Shown one piece after another: positions 9,330-41,936 of a stretch of 54,641 bases of DNA; position 1 is the stretch's first letter; each line of letters opens with the position of its first letter. Origin of the DNA: Chthoniobacterales bacterium (GTDB taxonomy: Bacteria > Verrucomicrobiota > Verrucomicrobiia > Chthoniobacterales > JAATET01); NCBI GenBank assembly GCA_036569045.1, contig DATCRI010000041.1:1-54641 (forward strand). Reading direction: 5' to 3'. The notes below the pieces were generated by a model. It made no database searches. It was not told the origin of the DNA and saw only the letters and a program-made list of their open reading frames with translations. The position numbers and the translations under genes were made by a program.

Positions 9330-9431
9330 GATAGACGGAAACCGGCCCCCGGGCGGCGCGTGATGAGGCTCTGCGGAAATCGGCAAAAGTTCTCGCCTGA
9401 TCGACGGCTGGCATCTGATTTTGCGAGTTCA

Positions 9432-24665: not shown

Positions 24666-25547
24666 TTACGGCGACGGGACCGACTTGCTCTCGAAGTAAT
24701 CACGAACGATCGGGAATCTGGGTTCGGCCCATCGAAGAAATGCCCCGATGTCGTTTTGACTCATGGACGGCTGGGCAGCCCGGAGGAAGTCATCCGGCCA
24801 GGTCCACCAGCGAAGTTCTTTCAGGAGGTCGACGATCTCGTCCGAGAAACGCATTCGGATGACTTTCGCCGGAGTGCCTCCCACGATGGCGTAGGCGGGC
24901 ACGTCTCTGGTCACCACGGCTCCGGCCGCCACGATGGCCCCGTCGCCAATGGTCACCCCGTCGCGCACGAAGACGTGAGCCCCGATCCAGACATCGGCGC
25001 CGAGCGTGATGGGCCGACGCTCCACGAACGAATCACGCTCCGCGAAGGTCAGGCCACTTTGACGGCGCGTCGAATAAAAAACCGGAGCCGTGGAGGGGAA
25101 ATCCGCCGGATGATCTCCGAACCCCATCATCGTGCGCGGGCCGATCGAGCAAAACGCCCCGGCGGTCACGTCGCTCAGATACGTTTCGCGGCCCACGTAG
25201 GAGCTCCGCCCGATTCGCACATCGGTCAGCTCGCATCGTGTCTGGACGCCGACGTGATCCGCCAGAGTGGAATTGAACACCATCGCCCCCGATTCGAGGG
25301 AACATCCCGGCCCGAGAACACTTCCGGCGATTCGCGATCCATCCGCGAGAGTCACGGCATCGCCGATCGTCGTTCCGGCGCCGATTTCGCTTCGAAAAAT
25401 TGCACAATCCGCGCCGATCTCGGCCCCGGGTGCGACCTTCGAACCGGGCTGGATGAAGGTGTTCGCACCGACCTTTGTCCTGGGAAAACGCAGGGCGTTA
25501 TCAAGCCGACGGACGGCCGACTTCAACGTTGATGTCGCGGATTTCAC
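24666..25547 (-). CDS. Left-handed beta-helix acetyltransferase (xenobiotic acetyltransferase-type)
   Basis: The protein is 293 aa from GTG 25547, which is 2 bp after the stop of the upstream gene; no clear ribosome site is seen and TTG codons further in are alternatives. Repeated hexapeptides run through most of the chain ([64 protein letters not shown]). They end with [16 protein letters not shown] and WWTWPDDFL, the closing blocks of the Vat/XAT and WbbJ-like branch. [16 protein letters not shown] holds the His expected to act as base. It likely acetylates a sugar of the EPS. The acceptor is unknown. Confidence 0.85.
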
Positions 25548-25549
25548 GA

Positions 25550-26476
25550 TCAGGAAAGTGGTGCGCCAAACAGGTCGCGGCCGACGCGGATTCGCGCCTT
25601 GAGATTGTTCAGCACGCTGATCGGCACGCCCGCATAAACCCGCGTCCAAAGATCGTCGGCGTAGGCATCCACCGAAATGCGCGAGGGATGCTCGAGAGCG
25701 CCGAGCGGCTGCGTCGGAACGACCAGTCGCTCCATGTCGACGAACTCGTGCGTTCCTCCGCCGCAGAAACCAAGATTCTCGACGAGATTGTTGGTCGGCA
25801 CAACGGCGACCCCCCCGAGCGAACGGCACGTGTAGTTCCACTGGAAGTCCCAGCAGTTCGTCTCGCGAAGGTTCCGCCGGGCCTGCTCGAAGGTGGAGAG
25901 CCAGTATTGTGCCTCCCAGTTGCTCGCGAAGGAGCGTCGCAGGGCGTCCTGGCGTTCGTCCCAGGTCGCCATCTCGAAGTCGTTATGGCGCCATGCGCGG
26001 CGCCACGTCGCCCAGCCCCACGTCCAGGGGTGACGGCTGAACCAGTAGCTCGTCCGCGGACGATGATAGGGAGCGATGAAATTGGTTCCCCCAATGTTCA
26101 TCACGCGCTCGTCGTCGCGATAGCGCTCGAGCATGTCGTCGCAAAATTCGAAGAATGACGGATCGGCCAGACAGTCGTCCTCGAGAATGACCGCCTCCTC
26201 GACGAGGCCGAACGCCCAGTCGATGCCACTGCGAATGCGATCCATGCATCCCATGTTGCTCCCGGCATAATTCGTGAGAACCTCGCAGGGCCAGTCCACG
26301 CCCTTTTCGACGATCGACCGGCACTCCTCGACAAGCGACGGTTCGCCCGGATGCGTAGCCCGGGCGCCATCGGAGACGATGAGAAGCTTCGGCGGCCGGG
26401 CGGCCCGCACCCGCTCGAATACGCAGCGCGTGAGCGTCGGTCGATTAAAGATGATGAGAACGACGGGCGTCTTCAT
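25550..26476 (-). CDS. GT-A fold glycosyltransferase (HlpA-like family)
   Basis: The 308-aa protein begins [39 protein letters not shown] carries the acidic metal-binding motif, and [16 protein letters not shown] is the aromatic block found in proteins often annotated as hemolytic protein HlpA-like. Those are nucleotide-diphospho-sugar transferases by fold, and haemolysis is not implied. [19 protein letters not shown] follows. The gene starts only 2 bp after the stop of the PEP-CTERM repeat protein, so the two are almost surely co-transcribed. Sugar specificity is unknown. Confidence 0.8.
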
Positions 26477-26478
26477 GG

Positions 26479-29400
26479 TTATGCGGAGACTTCGGCTTTC
26501 GAGCGACGGCGACGGACCGCGAAGAATGCCAGCGCGGCGCCGGAGATCAGGAGCGCCACCGGGGCAGGCTCGGGCACGGCCGAGAAATCCGTGAGCGTTA
26601 CGCCGCTCGCCGTGTAATTGACGACGAACGATGCCTTCCCGTCCGCCGTAGTGAGCCGCATGCCGTTTGCCGCATTCGCAAACTGTCCGTGCAGGGTGCC
26701 GCCATTTCCGAGGACGATCTCAAACGAATCGTCCGCGGTGATCTGATTCTCGAATCCGCCGATGAGAGTGAGCGTGAGGGTGCCCCCGAGCGTGAGCGAA
26801 GTGCCGGAGGTCTGCGTGAGCACGTCGTAGCCCGAACCGGCCGCGAGGCCGCCAATCTCGAAGAACGATTGCGCGGTCGAGGTGAGCGTGAAATTGCCCG
26901 CGATGGAGATTCCGCCCGCGGAGTGCCCGGGAGAGAAGGTTCCCGCCACGGTGGTGGCGCCGGCGATCGATCCCGATCCGACGAGACTGCCCGCCTGGAT
27001 CGAGAGGGAGGTTGCCGAGAGAAGTCCGCCGCCCGATCCGAGATCGGTGCTGCCCGCCGTCTGGGTGTAAGCGCCCGAGACCGCAAGGTGCGTGCCGGCG
27101 CCATCCACGGAGACCGTCCCGGAATTCGTCAGCGATCCGACGGTTGTAAAGGACCGTCCCGCCGAGAGGCGAAATGCGCCCTGGTTATTCGCGAGAGTGC
27201 TTATGTTTGTGAACACGGAGTTCGCCCCGGCCAGCCGGACGTCGCCCTTGTTCGTCACGATATTTCCGACGGTGGGAAGCGAGAGCGTCGCGAGGTTTCC
27301 GACGATCCAGGTGCCGCCGGTCAGCGTCGTCCCGGAAACCTGCGCCAGCGCGGCTTTCACCACGAGCGTGCCCGACTGGACACTTACCGTGCCGGAGTTA
27401 CTGAATGCCACGCCGATCGTGGAGCTGCCCGTCCCGGCGGATTTGATGAGGGTGCCGGTGTTGTTGAACGCGGACGCCACCTCGCCAATCTGCTCGATCG
27501 TGCGGTCGTTCTGCAAATCGAAGGTGCCGTGGTTGTTGATCACCGCGCCGGAGTCGAGGAAGAGATCGCCGATACCCTTCCACGTGGACGTTTTGCCTGC
27601 TCCGAGGTTCAGCGTGCGACCGCTAAGGCCGCCGCCGATCCCCTGGAAGTTGAGGGTCATTCCCCCGTTGGCATTGAGCACGCTGGCACCGGAGAGCGTT
27701 CCCCCCTGCCAGTCGAACAAGCCGGAGACAAGGAGGTCGGCCGAGCCCGTGAGGGTGCCTCCCGTCAGCGTCAAAGATCCGCTGCTCGCCGAGGACGCCG
27801 GGTGAAGATTGACCGTGCCGCCGCTGATAAGGGTGTCGCCTCCGACCGTGTAGGATCCGCTGATATCCATCGTTCCCGCGCTGAAGCCGATGCTGCCGGC
27901 CCCGACGATCGCGCCGGAACTGCTTCCTCCACCCGCGAAAATCAGCCGGCCGGCCTCGGGATGAATCTCCCCCGTGCTGAGAATCGTCACAAAGATCGAG
28001 GTGGATCCCGTTCCCGCCGACTTGGCGAGGACGCCGCTGTTGAGGAAGGAGGGCTCCGAAAATGTCTGCACGAAAATCGAACGGTCGTTCTGAATGTCGA
28101 AGAGACCGGAATTTTTGATCGTGGCGCCGGTTTCGAGCGAGATGTCTCCCGTGCCCAGCCATGTCGTCGTGTGGTTGGCAGCGAGGTTGAGCGTGCGCTG
28201 GCTGAGCGTGCCGGTATTGCTGGCGAGATTGATGACCATTCCGCCGTTCGCGTTGATCACGCTCGCGCCGGTCATGGAACCGCCCGTCCACGTCACCACA
28301 TCGCTGGCATTAATGACGGCTGTTCCGCCGACGACGCCTCCATTCACGGTGAGCTTGCCAGTCGTCATGGGCGCCGCCGTATTGAAGTTCACGACCGAGC
28401 CGCCGCCGATCTTCGTCTCCCCGGCGACCTGATACGAACCCGTAATCGTCATAACCTTGCCGTCTCCGCCGAAGGCGACCGCGCCAGCACCCTGCATCGT
28501 GCCGGTGCTCGTTCCGCCGCCGTTGAAGGTCAGCGTGCCGCTCTGGACATCGACGACCCCGGAATTCGTGAACGCGATGCCCACCGTCGCCGTCCCGGTG
28601 CCTGCGGTTTTCGTCAGCAGGCCGGTATTGTTGAACGTCGACTGGGCCTGCCCGTTCTGGACCATGGATCGGTCCGCCTGGAAATCGAAGGTGCCATCGT
28701 TGTTGATGGTGGCGCCGGAGAGAAACATGTCCCCCGCCCCGCTCCAGGTGCTCGTCTGGCCGGCCGCCAGATTCAGCGTGCGCTGATTCAGGCCGAACGT
28801 GCTGCCGGTCACATTGATGGTCAAACCTCCGCCCACGTTGGTGATGCCCGCGCCGCTCATCGCGCCGCCGAGCCACGTCATGGCGCCGGTCACGTTCAGC
28901 GTGGAGGCCCCCGTGATCGCCCCGCCGCTAAGGAGGAGCGATCCCGTGCTCGCGGCCGACGCCGTGTTGAAGGTCACCGTGCCCGCAGTCACTGCGGTCG
29001 CGCCGGTCATGGCAAAACCGCCGGTGAGGTTCATGCTATCGCCGCCGAAACCCACGGTGCCCGCACCGGCGATCGAGCCGCTGCTGGAGCCGCCGCGATT
29101 GAAGTTCAGGGTTCCGCTCTGCACCGCGACGCTGCCGGTGTTCGTGAAGGTGACGTTGATGTTCGTCGCGCCCGTGGCGACGGTCTTCGTCAGCGTTCCG
29201 GAGTTCGAGAGCAGTCCCAGCGTTCCGATATTATTGAACTGCATGGCCCGGTCATTCTGGATGTTGAACGTGCCCGCGTTGCTGAGCGTGGCGCCGGCGC
29301 CGAAGTAGAGATCACCGGCGCCCGTCCACGTCGAAGTTTTTCCCGCTCCGAGATTGAGCGTGCGCTGACTCAGGGTTGCGCCGTTGCTGCCAAAGTTCAG

Positions 29401-29790
29401 GGCCGCGCCTCCGCTGGCATTCAGCACACCGGAGCCGCTCGACGTCCCGGAGTTCCAGGTGAATGTGTCGAGCGCCGTCAGATTTCCCGCGCCGGTGAGC
29501 GTTCCCGCCGCCAGCGTAAACTTCTGGATGGTGACGTCGCTGCCCAGCGTGATCGCGGATCCGTTGCCGAGGAGCGCATCGTAGGTGAAGCCGCCATTGC
29601 CGTTGTTCGGCGCCTGCGCGGTCGCGGGAAGATTCGTCCAGTTGGCCGCGGATTCCCACGATCCGTCCGCCCCGCTCCAGGTCGAGGACACGTTGGCCGC
29701 CTGGAGAGAAAACCCGCAACCCATTGCGGCAACAGCCCAGATCGCCCGGTCAAGGGCGCCGACGGAACGAAACAGAAGACGACGATTCAT
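26479..29790 (-). CDS. Secreted beta-strand-repeat protein with PEP-CTERM-type sorting signal
   Basis: The protein is 1103 aa from ATG 29790. It opens with a basic N-region and hydrophobic signal (RAIWAVAAMGCGFSLQAANV), followed by SSTWSGADGSWESAANWTN, the usual head of autotransporter-associated beta-strand (PATR) proteins. Long Gly/Ser/Thr/Asn-rich repeats follow: QRTLNL recurs at residues 142, 336 and 531 and GRTLNL at 724, a period near 194 residues. The tail is VPEPAPVALLISGAALAFFA then RRRRSK: a PEP motif at about 1072, one membrane span and an Arg cluster. Such tails are cut and the protein anchored or released by an exosortase, none of which is in the window. It is probably a large surface fibre or matrix protein made with the polysaccharide. 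Confidence 0.85.
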   Translation of the reverse strand: MNRRLLFRSVGALDRAIWAVAAMGCGFSLQAANVSSTWSGADGSWESAANWTNLPATAQAPNNGNGGFTYDALLGNGSAITLGSDVTIQKFTLAAGTLTGAGNLTALDTFTWNSGTSSGSGVLNASGGAALNFGSNGATLSQRTLNLGAGKTSTWTGAGDLYFGAGATLSNAGTFNIQNDRAMQFNNIGTLGLLSNSGTLTKTVATGATNINVTFTNTGSVAVQSGTLNFNRGGSSSGSIAGAGTVGFGGDSMNLTGGFAMTGATAVTAGTVTFNTASAASTGSLLLSGGAITGASTLNVTGAMTWLGGAMSGAGITNVGGGLTINVTGSTFGLNQRTLNLAAGQTSTWSGAGDMFLSGATINNDGTFDFQADRSMVQNGQAQSTFNNTGLLTKTAGTGTATVGIAFTNSGVVDVQSGTLTFNGGGTSTGTMQGAGAVAFGGDGKVMTITGSYQVAGETKIGGGSVVNFNTAAPMTTGKLTVNGGVVGGTAVINASDVVTWTGGSMTGASVINANGGMVINLASNTGTLSQRTLNLAANHTTTWLGTGDISLETGATIKNSGLFDIQNDRSIFVQTFSEPSFLNSGVLAKSAGTGSTSIFVTILSTGEIHPEAGRLIFAGGGSSSGAIVGAGSIGFSAGTMDISGSYTVGGDTLISGGTVNLHPASSASSGSLTLTGGTLTGSADLLVSGLFDWQGGTLSGASVLNANGGMTLNFQGIGGGLSGRTLNLGAGKTSTWKGIGDLFLDSGAVINNHGTFDLQNDRTIEQIGEVASAFNNTGTLIKSAGTGSSTIGVAFSNSGTVSVQSGTLVVKAALAQVSGTTLTGGTWIVGNLATLSLPTVGNIVTNKGDVRLAGANSVFTNISTLANNQGAFRLSAGRSFTTVGSLTNSGTVSVDGAGTHLAVSGAYTQTAGSTDLGSGGGLLSATSLSIQAGSLVGSGSIAGATTVAGTFSPGHSAGGISIAGNFTLTSTAQSFFEIGGLAAGSGYDVLTQTSGTSLTLGGTLTLTLIGGFENQITADDSFEIVLGNGGTLHGQFANAANGMRLTTADGKASFVVNYTASGVTLTDFSAVPEPAPVALLISGAALAFFAVRRRRSKAEVSA
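27340..29427 (-). repeat. Four degenerate ~582-bp coding repeats in the PEP-CTERM protein gene
   Basis: The encoded units begin at VLNASGG, ITNVGGG, VINANGG and VLNANGG, each followed by a QRTLNL/GRTLNL block, a TSTW/TTTW block, a DxQNDR-type block and a SAGTG/TATGA block. Spacing is 194, 195 and 193 residues and the fourth unit is incomplete. Units have diverged at DNA level, so they are old duplications. They are a beta-solenoid-like protein repeat and not a CRISPR or mobile element. Confidence 0.8.
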
Positions 29791-29835
29791 ACACAAACGG
29801 AGACAACGCGTGGGACAACGACGAACCGGAGGAAA

Positions 29836-31077
29836 TCAGGCCCGCGAAACTTCAACGCGCTGATTGGAGAGGGCGGAGATCGGGGTGGTCGTCCGAGCGG
29901 CCTGCCCCTGCTTGATCTGGATGAACGGACGCTCCGCCAGACGGTAGAAGACGTAGCCCACCGCAATCGCGAGGGAGATACCGGACACCTTGAAAAGGAC
30001 GTAGGTGGTCAGCGGACTGAAGCCGAGGGGATCAAGCCCATACTGCCACAGGATCTGCAGCAACGGCGCGTGAATCAGGTAGATGCTGTAGGCGAACGTG
30101 CCGACGAAAACGAGCGGCGGCAGCGACAGCGCCCGGCGAAGCCATCCGCGCGGAGTCAGCGCAAGATAGACGAGGAGGGTCATCGCCCAGACGCCGACGA
30201 AATAGTCGATGATCACCGGCCCCACAGTGCCCCCCATGAGTTGCACGCCAAACCGGCTGAGGCCCAGCACCCCGATCGTCAGCGCGATCAAGGCCAGCAA
30301 CCCGGCGCCGCGCACCAGCTTCTCGCGGGAAGACTCTGCCCCGAGCTGGGCAAGTTTTGCTCCGAGCATGCCGAGCGCGAAAAGGCCGACGTATTGCAAC
30401 GTGAAGCCCTTGCCGAAGAGTCCCAAGCAACCGGCTACGATCACCGCAGACGCCGCGAGGCTGATCAACGTCGACCGCAGCGGACCGATTCCGCGCCAGA
30501 GGAGAATCATGGCCGGGAAGAGGAAGTAGATCCACCACTCGAGACTGATCGACCAGTGCGCATGATTGATGGCGCCCGGGTGCATCGAGAAGTTCTGGAG
30601 CAGGAAGAGGTTCGCGATGATGTCCCACCCGCCGACCGGCAGGCTGGCATCCCACGGGGTGTGCGTCTTGTCGCCGATGAACAGGACGATCAGCAGCAGC
30701 GAGACCGCCATGGCCGCGAAGTAAGGCGGCAGGATGCGAATCGCCCGCTTCTTGAAAAACAATCCCGCGCCGCCGCGCAGCACGCCGCCATTCCGCACGA
30801 CCGGGAGCATGAGGCAAAAGCCGGAGAGCACGATGAACAGGTCGACTGCGAAATGCCCAAGATTGTCGTAGAGCGAGAACATCCGGAGGCGATTCGTGAT
30901 CGCGAAGCCGAGCGGCCACTGGTCCCAGTTCGGAAGCCGCGCGTGGCAGCAGACCACGGCGAGCGCCGCGAGGGCGCGAAGGCCATCGAGATAGGCCAGA
31001 TGATAGGCGAGATGATTCGGAGAGGCGCTGCGGGTCGACTGGGAAGCGCCCACGGGGGAATAGGTCATAGTTTTCAT
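29836..31077 (-). CDS. Acyltransferase-3 family membrane protein (OafA-like)
   Basis: The protein is 413 aa from ATG 31077; upstream open sequence in frame is a shadow of the neighbouring GT2. LAYLDGLRALAALAVVCCHA holds the family Arg and His. FAVDLFIVLSGFCLMLPVVR and KKRAIRILPPYFAAMAVSLL follow, and WSISLEWWIYFLFPAMILLW closes the core. About ten membrane spans are evident. It should O-acylate a surface sugar. Overall plan is very like the protein at 9432-10724 (both read FIVLSGxCLMLP and LPPYFA), so the two may be duplicated and modify different residues. It lies 45 bp before the repeat-protein gene. Confidence 0.9.
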   Translation of the reverse strand: MKTMTYSPVGASQSTRSASPNHLAYHLAYLDGLRALAALAVVCCHARLPNWDQWPLGFAITNRLRMFSLYDNLGHFAVDLFIVLSGFCLMLPVVRNGGVLRGGAGLFFKKRAIRILPPYFAAMAVSLLLIVLFIGDKTHTPWDASLPVGGWDIIANLFLLQNFSMHPGAINHAHWSISLEWWIYFLFPAMILLWRGIGPLRSTLISLAASAVIVAGCLGLFGKGFTLQYVGLFALGMLGAKLAQLGAESSREKLVRGAGLLALIALTIGVLGLSRFGVQLMGGTVGPVIIDYFVGVWAMTLLVYLALTPRGWLRRALSLPPLVFVGTFAYSIYLIHAPLLQILWQYGLDPLGFSPLTTYVLFKVSGISLAIAVGYVFYRLAERPFIQIKQGQAARTTTPISALSNQRVEVSRA

Positions 31078-31145
31078 GAACGGATGGGTGGATGTCGGAG
31101 ATGGAAAGGCCCCGGGGACAGCGCCCGCGGGTGCCGCGCCGCGTC

Positions 31146-32051
31146 TCAAGCCCGCAGGCCCTGACGAACGACGTATTGAAAGAGCGACCACGAGCGGTAT
31201 TCGAGCGGGGCCCTGAGAACGCCTGCCGCCGCATGCAGGACGGCGGTCCGGGGCTCGTTGCCCTCGAGCGCCCAGAGCGCCCACTGGCGGAAGACGGAGT
31301 CCTGGTCGTTCACGCTGCCGATGCTGGCGAGTGGTTCGAGGCCATGGGCAAGCCGGGCATCGCGCACCGCCGAGGAAAGTCTTTCGATCTGCGCCGCGCT
31401 GCGGGTCTGGTTGTAGCTCTTCGCGTGCTGGCGGTATTTGAGAAGCACTTCCGGAAGATTGTGGAGGCGCCCCAGTTTCGAGAGACGCAGAAAGAGGTCC
31501 CAGTCTTCGCCGTAGCCGGCGAAGGCCGTGCTGTAGCCGCCGATCTGATCCACGGCCGCCTTGCGACAGGTCACCGTGGGATGAATGAGCGCGCCGCCGT
31601 TTCCGGCGAGCAACTCCGCGAGAATGGCCGCGTGCTTCTCGGGCGGCCGATAGGTTTTCAACCGGCGGCCCCTGGGATCGAGCATGTCGACGCAGGCGCC
31701 GACGCAAACAACCTCGGGATGAGCGCGCAGAAACTCGACCTGCTTCGCAAAGCGATCCGGCGTGCAGAAGTCGTCTCCATCCATGCGGGCAAGGAACTCT
31801 CCCCTCGCCGCGGCGATGGCGTTTTTCAGCGAAGCCACCAGCCCGCTGTTCTTCTGCGTGAGGACCTTCATCCGCGGATCGGCCGCGGCCACGCGCTCGA
31901 GCACTTGCGCGGTGTCATCGGTGGATCCGTCGTTCACCACGATGCACTCGAAGTCGGAGAACGTCTGATTCCTGACGCTGAGCAGAGCTCCTTCGAGGTA
32001 AGTGCCCACGTTGTAAACGGGAATGATGACGCTGAGAACGGGCGTGCTCAT
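31146..32051 (-). CDS. Family 2 glycosyltransferase
   Basis: The protein is 301 aa from ATG 32051, which overlaps the upstream GT4 stop by 4 bp. LSVIIPVYNVGTYLEGALLS, FECIVVNDGSTDDTAQVLE and GEFLARMDGDDFCTPDRFAK (DxD) define the donor half; YGEDWDLFLRLSKLGRL has the ED acceptor-base motif. YRQHAKSYNQTRS is close to the core end. Gap to the next acyltransferase is 68 bp, the largest on this side. Substrate is not predictable. Confidence 0.9.
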   Translation of the reverse strand: MSTPVLSVIIPVYNVGTYLEGALLSVRNQTFSDFECIVVNDGSTDDTAQVLERVAAADPRMKVLTQKNSGLVASLKNAIAAARGEFLARMDGDDFCTPDRFAKQVEFLRAHPEVVCVGACVDMLDPRGRRLKTYRPPEKHAAILAELLAGNGGALIHPTVTCRKAAVDQIGGYSTAFAGYGEDWDLFLRLSKLGRLHNLPEVLLKYRQHAKSYNQTRSAAQIERLSSAVRDARLAHGLEPLASIGSVNDQDSVFRQWALWALEGNEPRTAVLHAAAGVLRAPLEYRSWSLFQYVVRQGLRA

Positions 32052-33331
32052 GAAAGCATCCAGGGTTGTCTGCGGGGACCAGCCTGCCGGCGATGGGCGA
32101 TCGCCCGCTGGTAGCTCGCCTCGATCTGCGGCCCCATCGTGGCCGCGGAATACCGGGCGAGCACCGATTCCCGGGCGGCCTGCCCCATCGTGCGGCAAAG
32201 CGGAACATCCCCCAGCAGGCGGATGACGTGATCCGCGAGTTGCGAGGAATTCTCGGGCGCGATGAGCAGGCCGGTCTTGCCGGGCTCGATCATGTCGCTC
32301 ATGCCGCCGGCATTGCTTCCGACAACCGCGCGAGCCGCCGCCATCGCCTCGAGGCAGACATACGGAAAGTTTTCCCAGACGCTCGGGAAGACCGCGACGC
32401 GGACTTTGCCGAACCAGCCAGGCAGGCTCTCCGAAGGCTGACGTCCGGGAAATTCCGCGGCGATCCCCAGCTTCGCGCAGAGCGCCTGCAGCTGTTCCGC
32501 GGCGTCCTCTCCCCCCTCGAGCGGCGTGCTTTTTCCCACAAAGAGAAAGCGCACTCCGGGCACCGCCTGCGCAATGCGCGGGATCGCCGCCGAGAGGGTC
32601 TTGATGCCTTTGCGCACCTCGAGACGTCCGAAAAAGCCAACCGTGGGGGCTTCGTCCACCGGCGGCACATCGAGCATCACGGGCGATGGCGCGAAGGGAT
32701 TCGGCACATGCGCCACCCGATTCTCAGGAAGCTGCCATTGATCGATCGCGTAGGTGCGCAGAGCCCCGCTGGGACTCACGACTTCATCGCTCTCGCGGGC
32801 GACAGCGAGCTCGCGCATCTCGGTCTCGCGGCCACTCACGATGGCCGGATTCGCGAGTTTCAAATCCGGGAGCGCTTCCCGCTTCCGCAACGCGCCAACG
32901 AACATCCGCAACTGCGGGAGCGCCTCGGCAAATTTCAGGTTCCGCAGGTTCCGGGGCGTGTTGATTTCCGAAAGCAGGCCGGCGGGAGAGTGCATGCGAA
33001 TGACGAGCGGAATTTCCGGAGCAAAGCGGATCGCGAACTCGGCCTCGGCCTGGTATTCGGGAGCCTCGAGCACCTCGAAGGGCGCTTCCGCGTGTCGAAG
33101 GGCGAATGCCAGCCCGGCCGGAAAAGCAAACCGGCAGTTGTCCGTGCAGCCCACCGTGTGAACCTTCACGCCCGAAGGCCGCTCGAACGAGGAGGTCGCC
33201 GCACCACCGGCGAACACCTCCACCTCGTGACCGCGCTCGGCGAGAAGATCCGCCGCCTGGGCCGTGTAGGTCGCGATGCCGCCGTGGGCGGTCTCGGGGG
33301 GGAATTCGAAACTGAGAAAGGCGATGCGCAC
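32048..33331 (-). CDS. Family 4 glycosyltransferase (GTG start)
   Basis: The 427-aa GT-B protein begins MRIAFLSFEFPPETAHGGIA, with the GGIA acceptor loop; the first codon is GTG at 33331. VGFFGRLEVRKGIKTLSAAI opens the donor half and VWENFPYVCLEAMAAARAVV is the donor motif, followed by GGMSDMIEPGKTGLL. It lies 9 bp after the preceding gene and is coupled to the next GT2 by a 4-bp overlap. Specificity is unknown. Confidence 0.88.
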   Translation of the reverse strand: MRIAFLSFEFPPETAHGGIATYTAQAADLLAERGHEVEVFAGGAATSSFERPSGVKVHTVGCTDNCRFAFPAGLAFALRHAEAPFEVLEAPEYQAEAEFAIRFAPEIPLVIRMHSPAGLLSEINTPRNLRNLKFAEALPQLRMFVGALRKREALPDLKLANPAIVSGRETEMRELAVARESDEVVSPSGALRTYAIDQWQLPENRVAHVPNPFAPSPVMLDVPPVDEAPTVGFFGRLEVRKGIKTLSAAIPRIAQAVPGVRFLFVGKSTPLEGGEDAAEQLQALCAKLGIAAEFPGRQPSESLPGWFGKVRVAVFPSVWENFPYVCLEAMAAARAVVGSNAGGMSDMIEPGKTGLLIAPENSSQLADHVIRLLGDVPLCRTMGQAARESVLARYSAATMGPQIEASYQRAIAHRRQAGPRRQPWMLS

Positions 33332-33340
33332 CGATTTCGT

Positions 33341-34315
33341 TCAGGCGAGAAGCACGGCGGACTCGGTCGCCCGCGAATGGGCTCCGATGCCGGTGTCCGG
33401 CTTCGCGAGGAGAAAGCGACTGAGAAGCGCGATTCCCTCCGTGTAAAAATAGTCCCGCACCGGGCCGGCGCTCACGTAATGCCGGGCGACGCAATACGGC
33501 AGCCGCTCGGGCAGGAAACTGACCTCGTGCTCTCCCGAGAGCGCCGTGCCGTTCAGCCGAGTCATTTGCAGCGCGAGAATGGATTGCTCGATGTGCCAGG
33601 AGCGGCGTGGCGTGTCCCAGAATGCCGCGAGGAATCGCTCGGTGAGATCGAGGTCGTGCCAGCCGGCCGGCACGAGGTTCAGGCCGCCGTTGACGTGGTC
33701 CGTGACCGGGCTGCCATACCACTCGGTCAGCTTCCCGAGTCGCGGGAAGTAAAACGTAATGGGATCGTGCATGAACCGCGCGGTCGCCACCGGCGCAGTG
33801 GCCCAGGCGAGGATTTCCTTCGGATCGGCAAAGAACAGCACGTCCGTATCCACGCACACGGCGCGGTCGCCGCGCATGACTTCGGCAAGGAGAAATGCCC
33901 GACGGAAAATCGGATGGTCCGCCGCGGCGCGCTGGCAGGTCGGGTAAGGCGCGAGGAGTTTCGCGAGGATGTCCTGCCCTTCCACGTGAGAGATCACCCG
34001 GAGGCGGGGCAACGCCGCCTTGGCGCGCTCGACGATGGCCGGCGTGAGCGTGCCATCATCGATCCACACCTGGCTCCAGCGGTAGCCGGAGAAATAGTCG
34101 AGGCTGCGGGCCGTCCAGATCGCCATGTCGACAGCCGAGGCGCAGACGAGCGAGACGACGTCGACGTTCAGATTCGGCGCCGCCGGCGCAGGCACGCTGG
34201 CGAGCTTCGGCATCACAACCCGGGCGTAGAAATCGCGCTCGAGCGTTCCGATGCCGCGACCGACCCGCCAGAGCAGCCGGGAAGCGCGTTCCAGATTGCG
34301 AATCACTCGGCTCAT
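33341..34315 (-). CDS. Putative glycosyltransferase of unclassified GT-A type
   Basis: The protein is 324 aa from ATG 34315, which overlaps the Wzt stop by 4 bp. GDRAVCVDTDVLFFADPKEI carries a DxD-like motif. SLVCASAVDMAIWTARSLDY and VWIDDGTLTPAIVERAKAAL resemble an acceptor/donor start, and HVNGGLNLVP follows. No signal peptide. It is only related in pattern to the GT-A proteins at 16211-17137 and 23480-24355. Context makes transfer to the EPS chain likely, but catalysis is unproven. A longer open frame in front is a shadow of the ATPase gene. Confidence 0.65.
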   Translation of the reverse strand: MSRVIRNLERASRLLWRVGRGIGTLERDFYARVVMPKLASVPAPAAPNLNVDVVSLVCASAVDMAIWTARSLDYFSGYRWSQVWIDDGTLTPAIVERAKAALPRLRVISHVEGQDILAKLLAPYPTCQRAAADHPIFRRAFLLAEVMRGDRAVCVDTDVLFFADPKEILAWATAPVATARFMHDPITFYFPRLGKLTEWYGSPVTDHVNGGLNLVPAGWHDLDLTERFLAAFWDTPRRSWHIEQSILALQMTRLNGTALSGEHEVSFLPERLPYCVARHYVSAGPVRDYFYTEGIALLSRFLLAKPDTGIGAHSRATESAVLLA

Positions 34316-35586
34316 GCCACGACGTAATCGGGCTGCACAGAAAGCGTCGTCTTCGGAAGGAGCAGGAGCGCGTCCTGATTCCGGGAGGCTCCAAGCTCCA
34401 TGCCCGCGCCTTCGATGAAGTCGAGATTGCAGATGCCGTGCAGTTCGTCGATGACCTCCGTCTTCGAGGCATCCGCCATCCAGAGCGAAGCGCGCAGCGT
34501 CATCGAGTTGATCGGGATCGGCGGCGTGCGCACGACGAACGTGTTTTTGCCGGCCTCGAGGCGGGCGCCATCCATCACGCGCTGGATGTCGAAATTGAGG
34601 ACCTTCACCTCGTTGGTCGTCTCGAAATAGAGCGCGAGACCGCCCACGGTCGTGGCCTGCTCGGCATTGATCGTGACGGTGAACTCCAACTCGGACCCGG
34701 GGCTCGGGTGGCTGGCGGAGGGATCGCCGACGACGTCGTAACGGAACGATGCGAACTGGGCGACGTTCTTCTTTTTCCGCGGACGGCTGAGCAGATTCAG
34801 GTCGTAACCCGGGGCGAGCACCTGGTCGGTATCCTCGTAATATTTCGGCACGATGCTGGCAGGCGTGCCGTCGGCGATCACCTTGCCCGCGTCCATCAAG
34901 ACGGCGCGATTGCAGAGGCGCATCACCGTTTCCATCGAGTGGCTCACGAAGAGAATCGTGCGGCCCTGCTTGCTGGAAACTTCCTGCATCTTTCCGATGC
35001 ACTTGCGCTGGAAACGCTGGTCACCGACCGCGAGCACCTCGTCGACGATGAGAATCTCGGGCTCGAGATGCGCCGCGACCGCGAAGGCCAGGCGGACATA
35101 CATGCCGCTCGAGTAACGCTTCACCGGCGTGTCGATGAACTTCTCGATCTCGGCGAAGGCGACGATCTCGTCGAACTTCCGGGCGAGCTCGGACTTCTTC
35201 ATGCCGAGGATCGCGCCATTGAGGAAAACGTTCTCCCGGCCGCTGAGTTCGGGATGAAAACCCGTGCCAACCTCGAGCAGACTCGCGACGCGTCCACGAA
35301 GAGTCGCATACCCGCTGGTCGGTTCCGTGATGCGGGAAAGAATCTTCAACGCCGTGCTCTTGCCGGCGCCGTTGCGACCGATCAGGCCGATGACTTCGCC
35401 GGGCTGGACGTCGAACGAAAGGCCGTTCAGCGCCCAGAACTCCCCGCGCTGGGGCTTGGCGTTGTTCCCGCGGCCCGTGATTTTTTTGACGCCTCGCTCC
35501 AGCGCGTCGCGCAGCGAAACGGCCCCGATTTCTCCGAGATTGTAGCGTTTCGACAGGTTGCTGACTTCGATGATTGGCTTGGACAT
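34312..35586 (-). CDS. wzt: Polysaccharide ABC transporter ATP-binding protein with Wzt-type C-domain
   Basis: The 424-aa ATPase has GRNGAGKST (Walker A) at residues 70-78, the ABC signature YSSGM at 158-162, LIVDEVL (Walker B) at 179-185 and the switch His in VSHSMET. Residues from about 265 form a beta-rich C-terminal extension (ELEFTVTINAEQATTVGGLA) like that of Wzt, which in the O8/O9 O-antigen systems recognises the finished, capped glycan. It pairs with the permease 37 bp upstream to export a polysaccharide made in the cytoplasm. It is coupled to the next transferase by a 4-bp overlap. The gene name reflects family, not proven function. Confidence 0.9.
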   Translation of the reverse strand: MSKPIIEVSNLSKRYNLGEIGAVSLRDALERGVKKITGRGNNAKPQRGEFWALNGLSFDVQPGEVIGLIGRNGAGKSTALKILSRITEPTSGYATLRGRVASLLEVGTGFHPELSGRENVFLNGAILGMKKSELARKFDEIVAFAEIEKFIDTPVKRYSSGMYVRLAFAVAAHLEPEILIVDEVLAVGDQRFQRKCIGKMQEVSSKQGRTILFVSHSMETVMRLCNRAVLMDAGKVIADGTPASIVPKYYEDTDQVLAPGYDLNLLSRPRKKKNVAQFASFRYDVVGDPSASHPSPGSELEFTVTINAEQATTVGGLALYFETTNEVKVLNFDIQRVMDGARLEAGKNTFVVRTPPIPINSMTLRASLWMADASKTEVIDELHGICNLDFIEGAGMELGASRNQDALLLLPKTTLSVQPDYVVA

Positions 35587-35623: not shown

Positions 35624-36484
35624 TCAGGCCTTGTCGACGTAGCTGCGTTCGATCTTGTTGAACCACAGGAAGCCCGCGAAGAAGATGACCAGGGCCATCA
35701 CCCACGAGATCGTGACGGCCAGCGGGGAAAGCGTCCCCACCCCGAGAAGCGTCCAGCGGGCGCCCTCGACCGGCACGGTCATGGGATTCAACTGCACGAT
35801 CCAGCGATACTGCTCCGGAAACTGACTGGCCGGATAAATGATCGGCGTGAGATACATCCAGATCTGGACCATGAATCCCAGCATGTGCTGGAGGTCGCGA
35901 TAGACCGCTGTGAGTGACGAGAAGATCAGCGCCGAGCCCAGCCCGACGAGCGTCGCCTGCAGGGCAAAGATCGGGAAAAGCACGATCTGCCAGCCCAGAT
36001 GAACGTGGTGGGCCGTGGAGGAAAAGAGGTCGACCACGAGATAGGTGACTCCCAGCAGAACGAACTGAATCGCCAGCGGGATGAATGCCGAGATGCCGTT
36101 CGCCATCGGCACGATGATGCGGGGGAAATACACCTTGCCGAAGAGGTGGGCGTTCGACTGGAGCACGTTGCCCGATCCGCTGTAGATCTGGGCGAACAGG
36201 TTCCAGCAAAGCAGGCCGCTCATGTAGAAGAGCACCGGCGAAACGGAGTCCGTCGGAATCTTCGCGACCTTGGCGAAAATCACCGTGAACACAATGGTCG
36301 TCAGCAGGGGCTGGATGACCATCCAGGCGGGCCCGAGCACCGTCTGCTTGTATTTCGAGACGAAGTCCCGGCGGACGAGAAGCCAGAGCAGATCGCTGTA
36401 ATGGAAGATTCCCTGCCAGTCGACGTCCCAGAGCGACCGCCGTGGCCGGATCTGAACTTCGTAATCGAGGATGTTTTCGCTCAT
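35624..36484 (-). CDS. wzm: Polysaccharide ABC transporter permease (Wzm/TagG/KpsM type)
   Basis: The 286-aa integral membrane protein has about six spans. SDLLWLLVRRDFVSKYKQTV is the cytoplasmic coupling region of this ABC-2 type permease family, and LGPAWMVIQPLLTTIVFTVI begins the membrane part. LFAQIYSGSGNVLQSNAHLF and KVYFPRIIVPMANGISAFIP are conserved loops, and QYRWIVQLNPMTVPVEGARW is near the end. With the neighbouring ATPase it would carry polysaccharide across the inner membrane. It lies between the BY-kinase (36 bp) and the ATPase (37 bp). Confidence 0.92.
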   Translation of the reverse strand: MSENILDYEVQIRPRRSLWDVDWQGIFHYSDLLWLLVRRDFVSKYKQTVLGPAWMVIQPLLTTIVFTVIFAKVAKIPTDSVSPVLFYMSGLLCWNLFAQIYSGSGNVLQSNAHLFGKVYFPRIIVPMANGISAFIPLAIQFVLLGVTYLVVDLFSSTAHHVHLGWQIVLFPIFALQATLVGLGSALIFSSLTAVYRDLQHMLGFMVQIWMYLTPIIYPASQFPEQYRWIVQLNPMTVPVEGARWTLLGVGTLSPLAVTISWVMALVIFFAGFLWFNKIERSYVDKA

Positions 36485-36520: not shown

Positions 36521-38584
36521 TTAGTAGTAACCCGGATAGGCGAGCTGGCGGCCGGGCAGGCCGTTCAGCACCACGTTGGCGCGGGGATATTTCGCTTCGC
36601 TGAGGCTCTTGATCGCCCGTTTCAGGATCGCCTTGGGCGTCGAGAAGGCGCGGACCACGAGGCAGCAGGCGTCGACGTAGGGCAGGACGAGGTAGGTGTC
36701 GCTCACCGCGATGCACGGGGCAGAGTCGATGACGACGCGGTCGTAGTTCTTCATCGCCTTCGTCAGGAGCTCGCGGAACGCCGAGGTGGAAAGCAATTCC
36801 GAGGGATTGTCCACGAGACGACCGGCCGTGAGCAGCGTGAGATTCGGAACCTCGGTGGGACGGGCCACGCTCTCGAGCGGAGAGGTGCCGGCGAGGACTT
36901 CGGCGAGGCCGGCCTCCGTGTCCTTCGTCGAGAACAGGCGAGCCAGCGTGGGCTTGCGCAGATCCGCGTCGATGAGAAGCGTGCGCAGGTTCTGCTGCGC
37001 GAGGGTCACCGCGAAGTTCGAGCTCGCGAAGGTCTTGCCTTCGTTCGGGATGGAGCTCGTGAACAAGAACACGCGGCGCTGTTTGGCATCCCCAGAGTGC
37101 TGAACCGTCTGCGACGCGCGCAAAGTTCGGAACGCCTCCGCGGCCTGGCCACGGCGAACATTGAAGGCGATGAGGTCCGTCTTGCCCTTGATGAGCGGGA
37201 CGGTGGAGACGACCGGAAGACCGCTGATCTTCTCGGCCTCGTCGACAGACTTCACCGAACCGTCGAGCATGTGAAGCCCCACGGCGATGGCGATTCCGAC
37301 GACCAGGCCACCAACCAGGCCCATTCCGATCGTCTTGATCGCGCTCGACGACCGCATCGTGGACTCGTCCGCAAGCTGGTGAATCTGCACCGGGATGCTG
37401 TTGAAGGCCTTTGTCATGTCGACTTCCTTCAGGCGCTCGAGGACCGAGGCATACATCGCGCTGTCGCTGTCGATTTCGCGCTTCAAGGTGTTGTATTCGA
37501 TCGACTTGGAAGAGACCTGCAGCAACGAGTCCTCGTAACCGGCACGAACCTCCTTCATCTGTGCCAGCTGGGCCTCGGTCTGCTTCTCGGTGATCTCGAG
37601 AATGCCGATCATGCTCTTCAGGATCTCGTTCCGCTCGTTGACCGTGAAATCGAGATTCCTCTTGGCCTCGATGTAGACAGGATGCTTCGGCCGTTTGGTC
37701 TGGGAAATCTCGTTGAGATTGCGCTCCTGCTCGGAGATCGAGGCCGTGAGAGCGGCCACGCGAGGCTCGTTGGCCACACTGGGAAGGCGGAGAAGCTCTT
37801 CCGGTGAATCGGCGCTCACCCGGGCGGCGGCCAGATCTCGCCTGATCTGCAACACCTGCTCCTCGAGGGCGGCCATGCGCTTGGCCGCGTCGTTGAGTTT
37901 CAGCTGCGCTTCCTCCTGCTTCGCATCAAGGGAGGGAGTGCGCTCCTTCTCGCGAAACTGCTGCATCTTCGCGTCCGAAAGTTTCATCTTCTCGCGAAGC
38001 CGGGCGGCTTCATCGACCAGAGACTGGTTGGCCGACTGGGTGGCATTCGTGCGCTGCTCGACGATGAAGGCGACGTATTCCTTGGCGTAACTATTCGCGA
38101 GGAATTGCGATTCGCGGGGATCCCGGGTCGTCACGAAGATGTCCAGCAGCTTGGTATTCAGGCGGTATTGCGCCTTGACCATGGAATTCAGGATTCGCGC
38201 GGCGCGCTCCACCGAGAGCGACTTGTCATCGATTCCGGCTGCGCTGAGAAAATCCCGATCCGTGTTCAGATGGAGATGCTCCACGATGCGCTGGGCGAAG
38301 GAATAACTGATCAGGCCGTCGATCATCGTGTTGATCATTTCGGCGTTCTGAAACTGCCCTTCCACCACCGGCTTCACCGTGTCGAGGACGCGGTTCTGAT
38401 CGTCGGCAATCATAAGCACGGCGCGCGCTTCGAACGTCGCGACCTGCTTGCTCACGAGGACCGCGGCGATGACTCCGCCAACGATGACGGTGAGAACGAG
38501 AAGCCAGAGACGCTTGAGGACCGCGTCGAGGTATTCTCTCCAGTTGAAGGAGATCTCCTGATTTTCTTCGTCTTGTGTTGCCAT
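36521..38584 (-). CDS. wzc: Wzc-like polysaccharide co-polymerase with C-terminal tyrosine kinase (BY-kinase)
   Basis: The 687-aa inner-membrane protein has a Wzz domain at the N-terminus with TM1 (LWLLVLTVIVGGVIAAVLVS), a long periplasmic coiled coil rich in Lys, Glu and Gln, and TM2 (TIGMGLVGGLVVGIAIAVGL). The cytoplasmic kinase holds IPNEGKT (Walker A) at about 512-518, LLIDADLRKP (Walker A') at 536-545 and RVVIDSAP (Walker B) at 616-623. The tail is short, LAYPGYY, with only three Tyr, where Wzc usually has a cluster. It sets chain length and couples assembly to export, with oligomerisation governed by autophosphorylation. A cognate phosphatase gene is not in the run. Confidence 0.92.
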   Translation of the reverse strand: MATQDEENQEISFNWREYLDAVLKRLWLLVLTVIVGGVIAAVLVSKQVATFEARAVLMIADDQNRVLDTVKPVVEGQFQNAEMINTMIDGLISYSFAQRIVEHLHLNTDRDFLSAAGIDDKSLSVERAARILNSMVKAQYRLNTKLLDIFVTTRDPRESQFLANSYAKEYVAFIVEQRTNATQSANQSLVDEAARLREKMKLSDAKMQQFREKERTPSLDAKQEEAQLKLNDAAKRMAALEEQVLQIRRDLAAARVSADSPEELLRLPSVANEPRVAALTASISEQERNLNEISQTKRPKHPVYIEAKRNLDFTVNERNEILKSMIGILEITEKQTEAQLAQMKEVRAGYEDSLLQVSSKSIEYNTLKREIDSDSAMYASVLERLKEVDMTKAFNSIPVQIHQLADESTMRSSSAIKTIGMGLVGGLVVGIAIAVGLHMLDGSVKSVDEAEKISGLPVVSTVPLIKGKTDLIAFNVRRGQAAEAFRTLRASQTVQHSGDAKQRRVFLFTSSIPNEGKTFASSNFAVTLAQQNLRTLLIDADLRKPTLARLFSTKDTEAGLAEVLAGTSPLESVARPTEVPNLTLLTAGRLVDNPSELLSTSAFRELLTKAMKNYDRVVIDSAPCIAVSDTYLVLPYVDACCLVVRAFSTPKAILKRAIKSLSEAKYPRANVVLNGLPGRQLAYPGYY

Positions 38585-38630: not shown

Positions 38631-39428
38631 TTAATACCAGCTCTCTCCCACGCTAATGACGTCTCCGGCGACGATCTCCATCGGCGCTGCCGAGGAGTCG
38701 ACCATCTTCTTGGCGTTGATCTTAAAGGTCTGGGCGGTGCCTCCGCTGCCGCGTTTGACCATCACGTTTCTTTTGTCCGCAATGCGGGTGAAACCGCCGG
38801 CCATGCCGATCGCCTCGATGAGATTGATCCCCTCTCCGCTGTTCAGCGTGTAAGTGCCGGGATTATTAACCTGCCCAATGATGGTAAACTTCCGCTCCGC
38901 AAACTTCGTGACGCCGAGGGAAACCTGGGGCTCTACGAGATAGTCCGCGTTGTAACGATCGCGGATGAGGTTGCGGGCCTGCTTGATCGTCAATCCCGCC
39001 ACCTTGACGTCGTTGATGAGGGGAAATTGCACCGTGCCGTCGCGGGAGATCGTCGCACGGGTTGTGAGGTCCGACTCCCGGAAGATCGACATCTCAATGG
39101 AGTCGTTTGGCGTCAGAACATATTCACTATCCGTGGTTTGCATCGCGGTCGCCGGCGCAACGGGCAGGGCCGCCCGAACTTCCGGCTGCATGAAGACACT
39201 TCCCGGGGTCGCCACGGGCGAAGCGCTGTCCGTCGCGGTAGCCGAGGCCGTCACGGGAGTCGGAGTCGGGATCGTCTTGGAGAGGGCGCCCGCCTGGTTG
39301 ATTTCGTCGGGTCGAAACGGCTGGGAGAATGTCTGGGCGACACTCGGACGCGCTCCCAAAAGCGCGGCGATCACGGCCGAGGCCAGCACGGCCCGGGTGG
39401 AGATCCGATGAATAAGGGTGGTTTTCAT
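38631..39428 (-). CDS. Wza-like outer-membrane polysaccharide export (OPX) protein, short form
   Basis: The protein is 265 aa from ATG 39428. The N-terminus has a Sec signal (AVLASAVIAALLGARPSVAQ) with no lipobox Cys. A low-complexity Thr/Ala/Pro linker follows. SEYVLTPNDSIEMSIFRE starts the polysaccharide-export domain, and RKFTIIGQVNNPGTYTLNSG the single SLBB domain. It ends at VISVGESWY, just after SLBB, and so lacks the C-terminal helix that lets E. coli Wza span the outer membrane. Forms like this need a separate barrel, and the gene 10 bp upstream encodes one. It is 46 bp before the BY-kinase gene. Confidence 0.88.
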   Translation of the reverse strand: MKTTLIHRISTRAVLASAVIAALLGARPSVAQTFSQPFRPDEINQAGALSKTIPTPTPVTASATATDSASPVATPGSVFMQPEVRAALPVAPATAMQTTDSEYVLTPNDSIEMSIFRESDLTTRATISRDGTVQFPLINDVKVAGLTIKQARNLIRDRYNADYLVEPQVSLGVTKFAERKFTIIGQVNNPGTYTLNSGEGINLIEAIGMAGGFTRIADKRNVMVKRGSGGTAQTFKINAKKMVDSSAAPMEIVAGDVISVGESWY

Positions 39429-39438
39429 GTGACTTAAC

Positions 39439-40947
39439 TTAGTAGGTGAAGGTGAGGCCGACATTGGCCCGGACTTGCGGAGAAGAGGATTGGCCATCCC
39501 GGTCGGATCCGATCCAGAGAAGGCCGTTGAGGAAAACCCAGTCCTGAATGCGGTAGGAAAGACCGCAGCTCACAAAGGCAAAATTCCGAGCCTGATTCTG
39601 ATTATCCGTCACGCCCTCGGCGTCGTTCGTCGTGCCCACGTAATCCCATTGCTCGAAGCCTCCCGAGAGCGTGACCTGCGCCCGACTGAAAAAGGTCTGC
39701 GCGATGCTGGCGGCCACACCGCGGGTCACCCGGGCCTGCGAGGTCAGCACCGTCGAATATTCCTGAGTCTGGTAAACATTGATCGCGAACGACGTGTTCA
39801 GGCGAGGTTCCCAGGTCCATTGGAAGTTGAAAGACGGGCGAAGGTCGGTGCCTTCCATTCCAAGACTCGCGGACGCGGAGGTCTTTTCCGTGATCTGATA
39901 GCTGGCCTTCACGCGATAGGCGGGACGGAAGCCCACTTCCTCGGCTTCACCGCCACCGGTGCCACTGACATACCGGCAACCAATTCCGGCGGAGATGTTC
40001 AGTTTGGGGGTCGGCTCGTAAATGACGATTCCGAGAATCTGGCCGTATTGGCGGGATTGATTGGAGTTCTCGCTCAGTCCCTGCGAATCCTGCCCGGCGC
40101 CCAATTCCAGCCGAAACCGGGTTTTGCCGGTCCACGCATAATCCGCGTAAGCCTTGCCCTCATAAGCTCCGAGGGTGCCGGTCGGGGACGTTTCGGTTTG
40201 AGAAATGATATCCTGGCTGGCAGAAAGCGAGCCGCCGATCTTCGCGTCCTCGGTCAGCTGGTAATCTCCCGTGAGGGAGCCCGTCCAGCTCAGCTGAGTA
40301 TCGTTCTGACCAGACTCGATATTGAAACCACTGCCATAGGACAGGCCCGCATTGGCCTGGATCGTGTAGCGGCTTCCCTCGAGACCAAGGAGGAGCGATG
40401 CCGTGTTCTGAAACGGGTTATCGCCGCCGCCGCCACCCGAAGAATTGTAATTCGGATCCGTGTAAAACGTATAGCTGCCGCTGTAGCGCGCATCCACCGT
40501 CCAAGGGCCAACTTCTCGGAAATAACCGACGGTCAAAGCCGGGACGATGAAAGCGCTGTTGTTGGACGATTTCTTTCCCTCAGTGGCGTCGGCATTCTCG
40601 TCCGAATATTCCCAACCCAAAGTTACCGCCGGGTGAACAATCACGGGGCCGAGACGAAGGCCCATTCCCGCAGATCCTTCCTCCTGAGCCGCCGCGGCCG
40701 TCCGAAGAGCCTGAAGAAACCCTGCCAGACCCCGCGTGTCGTCAGCCTGATAAATCGAGGAAGGCAACGTTCCGCGATCGGCCGGCTCCCCCACCCAGCG
40801 GTAGCGAAACACGGCCTGCTCCACCGTCGTCGGCGCAACCGTCTGCGCGTTCGCCGCAAGCATCGGAACCAGAGCGATCAGAAAAACGCCCCAGAAGGCC
40901 CCCCGTCCCGGGAGGACTTCGATCGAGGACTTCGAGTGGGCGGACAT
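39439..40947 (-). CDS. Outer-membrane beta-barrel protein, putative polysaccharide porin
   Basis: The protein is 502 aa from ATG 40947, chosen because it puts the hydrophobic stretch FWGVFLIALVPMLAANAQT at a normal distance for a signal peptide. ATG 41052 would add 35 residues and the frame stays open as far as 41817, apparently by chance in GC-rich DNA. The mature part is alternating polar/aromatic beta strands with Gly/Ser/Asn loops (for example YSGSYTFYTDPNYN). It ends in RANVGLTFTY, with the terminal aromatic recognised by the Bam machinery. Position next to a Wza-like protein that lacks its own membrane segment suggests the two form the outer-membrane export channel. No ribosome site is clear. 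Confidence 0.72.
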   Translation of the reverse strand: MSAHSKSSIEVLPGRGAFWGVFLIALVPMLAANAQTVAPTTVEQAVFRYRWVGEPADRGTLPSSIYQADDTRGLAGFLQALRTAAAAQEEGSAGMGLRLGPVIVHPAVTLGWEYSDENADATEGKKSSNNSAFIVPALTVGYFREVGPWTVDARYSGSYTFYTDPNYNSSGGGGGDNPFQNTASLLLGLEGSRYTIQANAGLSYGSGFNIESGQNDTQLSWTGSLTGDYQLTEDAKIGGSLSASQDIISQTETSPTGTLGAYEGKAYADYAWTGKTRFRLELGAGQDSQGLSENSNQSRQYGQILGIVIYEPTPKLNISAGIGCRYVSGTGGGEAEEVGFRPAYRVKASYQITEKTSASASLGMEGTDLRPSFNFQWTWEPRLNTSFAINVYQTQEYSTVLTSQARVTRGVAASIAQTFFSRAQVTLSGGFEQWDYVGTTNDAEGVTDNQNQARNFAFVSCGLSYRIQDWVFLNGLLWIGSDRDGQSSSPQVRANVGLTFTY

Positions 40948-41936
40948 CGCCGTATTGGAAATCAAGCAGGAGGGCTTTCCCTCGACGAAATCGAGCCTCT
41001 CGCTCCGCGAGCAAATCGCTTTCAGCGCTCCAACCATTCGCTTGTTCTTCATTGTGATTTGGCTCGCCGCGTTCCAGACAGGTCCTCGACCTGCCCCACC
41101 GCGCTCGTTCCGTTTTATGTTGTTTTTCAATCCGTTCGGGAGGGTGCCTCGGGGCCAGATTTTGGAAAAATGCTGCCGCCCTTGGTCAATCGCGGTCCTT
41201 TCCGCGAAACCTTCCAAATGTGACTCAGGCGCTTCGTTCAGGACCCGAAGCTGTGGCCCTGGCAGATTCCCAAGCAATCCGGTAGATGCCCGCTTGGGTG
41301 CGCTGCCAGGCGCTATGTCTCTCGTTACAACAAAAAACTGGAAGAACCCGTGATCCCCCGACTGAGCAGCCCTCCGCACAAGACTTCGCTTGAGACGGCC
41401 CCGATCGGCGATGTTGGTGTTCCTTGAGTGATTCTCACCAAATTTTCCAATTTCGTGTTTTCTACCGCAAAGGATACGGACAAGGCGAGCAAACTTGCAG
41501 AAAAAGTGAATCTTTTTGACCTCCATAGAGACAGTTTGCGAAATTTCTCTGTTAAGAGGGCCGAAAATACGCGTGCCAGGAGACTTCCGAAGCCGGACGA
41601 CTCCCTGATCGAGTCCGCGCCAACTGACAATCTCGCTGCCAAATCGATGCCGGAAGCGAGCATTTGCGTGTGGGCACGGCCATTTCCCCTCGTATACGCC
41701 CGCACTTTTGCGAAATTGACCAAAAATCTTTGAGGCGTCCGCGGCACCTTGTCCGTTTTTCACCACAAAATCCGGCATTCTTCTCTGTAAAGGATGCGCA
41801 TGCATCTTTTTGATCACAAGCGCGTCACTTTTTCCTCACTTTCTTCGCAAGTCCGCAATTCCCGCGCGTATAGCTCGAGAAGAATACCATCGGAGAGAGC
41901 CCCTGGCCTCCCGGTGTCGTTGCTCAGGGAATCGCA
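40948..41936. other. Gene-free ~1-kb divergent regulatory interval
   Basis: This separates the long minus-strand run from the plus-strand transferase pair and is far longer than any other gap. It is less GC-rich than the genes, with several T- and A-rich patches near 41440-41520 and 41700-41830. Reading frames on both strands (for example 41428-41733 plus) show no family features. Promoters for both directions should lie here, but no sigma-70 or sigma-54 pair was convincing. TATAGC at 41869-41874 is a weak -10 candidate for the plus strand. Confidence 0.5.

Follow-up and report, generated by a model that had tools for sequence, protein, structure and literature searches.

The window, that is, the whole 54,641-nucleotide stretch of DNA that was analysed, represents contig C41 of a Chthoniobacterales genome (3.43 Mb in 91 contigs, 98% complete). 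Its minus strand carries a gene for a PEP-CTERM protein of 1103 aa with a predicted solenoid fold (26479..29790), recognised by its open reading frame, by a coding-like codon-position GC content (0.54/0.57/0.82) and by a match to TIGR02595. The gene starts with an ATG at 29790, 45 bp from the end of a membrane acyltransferase gene (29836), and stops 2 bp before the start of a gene encoding a 308-aa protein (26476); the coordinates bear out the frame and the two narrow gaps described in the first-pass annotation. On the plus strand, a 1491-aa open frame (26689-31164) runs antisense to the PEP-CTERM gene and the acyltransferase gene and is probably a shadow frame of the high GC content.

The neighbours form a polysaccharide cluster, likewise encoded on the minus strand. 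Upstream lie the acyltransferase (29836..31080, start provisional; PF01757, E 6e-33), a family 2 glycosyltransferase (31146..32051; PF00535) and a family 4 glycosyltransferase (32048..33331; PF00534, PF13692). They are preceded by an ABC transporter ATPase (34312..35586) and an ABC-2 permease (35624..36484), both detected in the Pfam scan and Wzt/KpsT-like and Wzm/KpsM-like, respectively, by context, a polysaccharide tyrosine autokinase/chain-length protein (36521..38584; TIGR01007) and a Wza-like polysaccharide export protein (38631..39497; PF02563, SLBB). Downstream, the gene of the 308-aa protein (25550..26476) is followed by one for a hexapeptide-repeat acetyltransferase-like protein (24666..25505, start provisional; Pfam and NCBIfam scans). 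The PEP-CTERM gene had been described as ending directly before a glycosyltransferase gene. The 2-bp gap is real, but since the 308-aa protein matched no Pfam family, its label rests on the context and a GT-A-like look.

Some further features of the cluster were recorded. The 308-aa protein is held by 20 of the 147 genomes of the order, the source genome included, and the latter has a second copy on contig C44 that is 54% identical. The acyltransferase is about 38% identical to a second PF01757 protein of the same cluster (9432-10622, minus strand). Beside the Wza-like gene, a 792-aa frame (39442-41817, minus strand) gave no Pfam or NCBIfam match and perhaps encodes an outer-membrane protein.

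The promoter scan returned a single promoter-like site, fewer than in shuffled sequences and located on the opposite strand. Terminator-like sites numbered 20 compared with 13.0 (sd 3.8) in shuffles, none of them in the 45-bp gap between the acyltransferase and the PEP-CTERM gene. Because of the 45-bp and 2-bp spacing and the gap free of terminator-like sites, co-transcription of the PEP-CTERM gene with the polysaccharide genes is likely. The proposed tie of its expression to exopolysaccharide (EPS) synthesis is supported to that extent, as a prediction from gene spacing.

The 1103-aa protein begins with a signal-peptide-like segment (aa 1-31, MNRRLLFRSVGALDRAIWAVAAMGCGFSLQA, 29698..29790), in which inspection by eye and hydropathy revealed a basic start, a hydrophobic stretch and LQA. 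Self-comparison delimited three full repeat units of 194, 195 and 193 aa, namely aa 92-285 (28936..29517), aa 286-480 (28351..28935) and aa 481-673 (27772..28350), and, together with the repeat profile, a partial fourth unit (aa 674-830, 27301..27771) that matches over about 138-158 aa and is divergent beyond. Of the four 194-aa repeats reported before, three are thus complete, whereas the fourth is only partial. The motif RTLNL recurs as an anchor at aa 143, 337, 532 and 725, pairwise identity between units is 40-49%, and the self-match at offset 389 (19.5%) exceeded all 200 of 200 shuffles (maximum 15.2%). The repeats are followed by a C-terminal region (aa 831-1071, 26578..27300). Similar regions stand before the PEP-CTERM tails of other proteins in relatives, with matches over aa 790-1097 in five genomes (G001, G003, G015, G020 and G022). 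Between signal and tail the composition is Thr 14.3, Ser 11.1, Asn 7.3, Cys 0.0 and Lys+Arg 2.7%, the same bias that has been described for PEP-CTERM proteins (PMC1569441).

The protein ends with a tail (VPEPAPVALLISGAALAFFAVRRRRSKAEVSA, 26479..26577) consisting of VPEP, a hydrophobic helix with its hydropathy peak at aa 1074, RRRR and seven residues before the stop, as revealed by TIGR02595, a six-frame search and hydropathy. TIGR02595 scored 17.9 bits, above the NCBI cut-off of 16, and the domain ends at aa 1096 of 1103, fewer than ten residues from the C-terminus. In the six-frame search of the genome the same tail scored 24.8 bits (E 2e-4). With Pfam PF07589 it reached 17.0 bits, under the gathering cut-off of 20.7; that model caught only 22% of the TIGR02595 PEP-CTERM set (PMC1569441). 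The assignment as a PEP-type sorting tail is therefore confirmed, and the search for other PEP-CTERM genes, which had been suggested as a check, found at least 15 such tails in the source genome, that of the window protein included.

No exosortase was found on the window contig, as had been remarked, and the genome-wide search with PF09721 confined the matches to contigs C47 and C9. One exosortase over the cut-off lies on each (E 7e-45 and 3e-44). Both carry the C-x-G, N-x-x-R and H-x-x-x-G motifs, in one case as CSG 209, NLAR 251 and HLLAG and in the other as CSG 202, NIIR 244 and HDTAG, corresponding to the Cys, Arg and His motifs of exosortases (PMC1569441). The C47 exosortase has an EpsI-like neighbour, with WecG-type and other glycosyltransferases nearby, and the one on C9 is found among nucleotide-sugar genes (rmlA, dTDP-glucose dehydratase, gmd and a UDP-glucose-dehydrogenase-like gene). 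The idea of processing by an exosortase encoded elsewhere, which a genome devoid of exosortases would have contradicted, hence survives with two candidates. No PrsR response regulator passed the cut-off genome-wide, where only regulators below it were seen.

These features resemble the PEP-CTERM/exosortase (EpsH) system (Haft et al. 2006, PMC1569441) in a tail of VPEP, helix and basic cluster placed at the very C-terminus, in the signal-like N-terminus, in a Thr/Ser/Asn-rich and nearly Cys-free composition, in exosortase genes within polysaccharide loci and in many tails per genome. The most fitting reading of the window protein is that of an exosortase substrate.

The repeats matched nothing in NCBIfam (E <= 0.1) or Pfam (E <= 10), including the autotransporter-associated beta strand repeat models TIGR02601 and PF12951 at these same thresholds. 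Sequence searches of the PDB, and searches for relatives in viral contigs and in plasmids, gave no match, and the genome contig collection yielded one relative. A profile built from the four units detected tandem copies in other long proteins of L037, G159, G266, G148, G349, G091, G017 and G008; L037 is a Burkholderiales MAG, and the copies of G159 sit in a 3579-aa frame. Judged by these profile matches, the unit of about 190 aa is common to distant bacteria and has no family model in Pfam or NCBIfam, which makes it of use to annotation. Loci with such tandem repeats comprise, among others, aa 92-830 of the window protein, L037 6927-9796 and L072 3133-13779.

The structural prediction of the repeats that had been proposed was run in AlphaFold, for which two-repeat stretches of the window protein and of L037 were aligned in non-overlapping rows. 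For repeats 1 and 2 the model was confident (pLDDT 92.1, pTM 0.87) and contained short strands only, an all-beta solenoid; the full protein without alignment gave an unusable model (pLDDT 38.5). VIA-align of the two-repeat model returned Z scores of 19.9 against the Vag8 passenger and 17.1 against pertactin, and the remaining rows were mostly beta-helical proteins. Foldseek against PDB and viral structures found nothing at E <= 0.001, so that the fold class depends on the AlphaFold model and on VIA-align; from these we read the repeats as a parallel beta-solenoid resembling the passengers of autotransporters. The model has 51 strands in 389 aa; taken as three strands to a coil, this gives an estimated 23 aa or so per coil, and repeats and C-terminal region together would make up 35-40 coils, or about 18 nm.

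The autotransporter passengers Vag8, pertactin and antigen 43, which are among the best VIA-align matches, form the parallel beta-solenoid rod that is predicted here, but in the structural alignments they have only 11-16% sequence identity to the window repeats. In addition, the C-terminus here is a PEP-CTERM tail, and Pfam detected no autotransporter barrel in the 1103-aa protein, its sole match being the PEP-CTERM model.

The statement that PEP-CTERM proteins are typically linked to EPS loci turned out to be wrong at the gene level. EPS loci hold the exosortase (EpsH) gene, and the PEP-CTERM genes themselves mostly form operons of a single gene, with a large gap upstream (PMC1569441), unlike the window gene, which is wedged into a glycosyltransferase operon. 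Among the 15 over-cut-off tails of the source genome, 13 have no family 2 (GT2) or family 4 (GT4) glycosyltransferase gene within 10 kb; of the remaining two, one has a single such gene at 6.5 kb and the other, the window gene, has four within 10 kb and is the only PEP-CTERM gene of the genome inside a glycosyltransferase cluster. In four relatives, at least one GT2/GT4 gene was found within 10 kb for 7 of the 56 tails listed (out of 97). The strongest of these neighbourhoods (G005:C2) contains a different, 305-aa PEP-CTERM protein, whose gene and the polysaccharide genes are on opposite strands. Three of the seven were inspected, and none had its PEP-CTERM gene packed in a same-strand glycosyltransferase operon. 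Such tight packing is uncommon; the window protein combines an ordinary PEP-CTERM class with an uncommon gene position and an unnamed repeat.

The arrangement was also followed across relatives. No full-length relative of the 1103-aa protein occurred in 37 other genomes, and the upstream acyltransferase had no match at E <= 1e-20 in genus-mates. None of the 19 relatives of the downstream gene showed a PEP-CTERM gene upstream (two lacked a long upstream frame to judge), and in the regions fetched around repeat-containing relatives no adjacent glycosyltransferase like that of the window was seen. A glycosyltransferase-linked position common to relatives was consequently rejected for the genomes searched, and since the linkage is not conserved, an obligate partnership of protein and polymer is weakened.

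We lean, if only slightly, towards a secreted, rod-like beta-solenoid that one of the two exosortases would process and that is co-expressed with an ABC-exporter-type capsule/EPS operon. The protein would be exported by Sec through its N-terminal signal, the C-terminal helix would serve as a stop-transfer in the inner membrane, an exosortase would cut near the PEP motif and the protein would then pass to the cell surface. There, a Gly/Thr/Ser/Asn-rich solenoid of roughly 900 aa might stand in, or be held by, the polysaccharide layer, its expression being shared with the operon. In this scheme we infer the co-transcription, the processing, the acting exosortase, the place where the protein ends up and any binding to it, or glycosylation of it, by the polysaccharide machinery of the operon. 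That the solenoid might act as a structural partner of the EPS, as suggested, is plausible. A precedent in function is the floc-forming protein PepA of Aquincola, a PEP-CTERM protein tied to bound versus released exopolysaccharide; on its overexpression the released fraction fell and the bound fraction rose (PMC9850573). PepA may serve as a model for the proposed role, but it is likened here by description only, and its gene lies beside prsT and is RpoN-driven rather than being placed in a glycosyltransferase operon.

It is also possible, if less probable, that the gene is a bystander which landed in the operon and gained expression there, its product being sorted by an exosortase like at least 14 siblings but with no functional tie to the polymer. 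The linkage is unique to the source genome among those searched, the other PEP-CTERM genes of this genome are located elsewhere, and PEP-CTERM proteins are among the fastest-changing of their genomes (PMC1569441), all of which would suit such an arrival; a same-direction insertion with gaps of 45 bp and 2 bp is, however, neat for chance. The flanking cluster is itself variable among relatives, so that non-conservation is expected under both readings, and as both polysaccharide loci and PEP-CTERM proteins evolve rapidly, it neither proves nor excludes a tie.

Quite unlikely, in our estimate, is a surface glycoprotein whose Thr/Ser/Asn-rich chain is decorated by the adjacent glycosyltransferases or acetyltransferases. 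A glycosyltransferase-like gene only 2 bp away, acyl- and acetyltransferases on both sides, 16 N-x-S/T sites and 33% Thr+Ser+Asn in the protein would agree with it, but PEP-CTERM proteins as a class share this composition, none of the scanned neighbours matched a known family of protein glycosyltransferases or oligosaccharyltransferases, and no PEP-CTERM gene was seen upstream of the 19 relatives of the downstream gene. We regard it as very improbable that the tail is a membrane anchor only, holding the protein in the inner membrane and facing the periplasm. A tail that is simply a hydrophobic helix plus a basic cluster, and the sub-threshold Pfam score, could be read in this way, but the TIGR02595 score, the full motifs of both exosortases and the many siblings with tails of this form argue against it.

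A stronger version of the favoured exosortase-substrate reading, which we consider unlikely, is that the operon makes a polysaccharide together with its own protein scaffold and that the exosortase joins or hands the solenoid to the polymer, as a matched pair unlike the scattered PEP-CTERM genes. An operon-locked PEP-CTERM gene, which predicts such a matched protein-polymer pair, is a natural test case for the role of exosortase-sorted proteins towards exopolysaccharide.

PEP-CTERM genes at other loci showed further arrangements. Contig C11 (L059) contains three same-strand PEP-CTERM-like genes within 4.5 kb (7457-9376, 10409-11059 and 11129-11941), two of which are absent from the HMM list. 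Several contigs of G017 together have 42 PEP-CTERM tails, many of them ending frames of 2000-5700 aa. In L080 (G021:C4; 7718-10369 and 16946-18595), a protein matching only the C-terminal region of the window protein lies about 6.6 kb from an exosortase-like gene.
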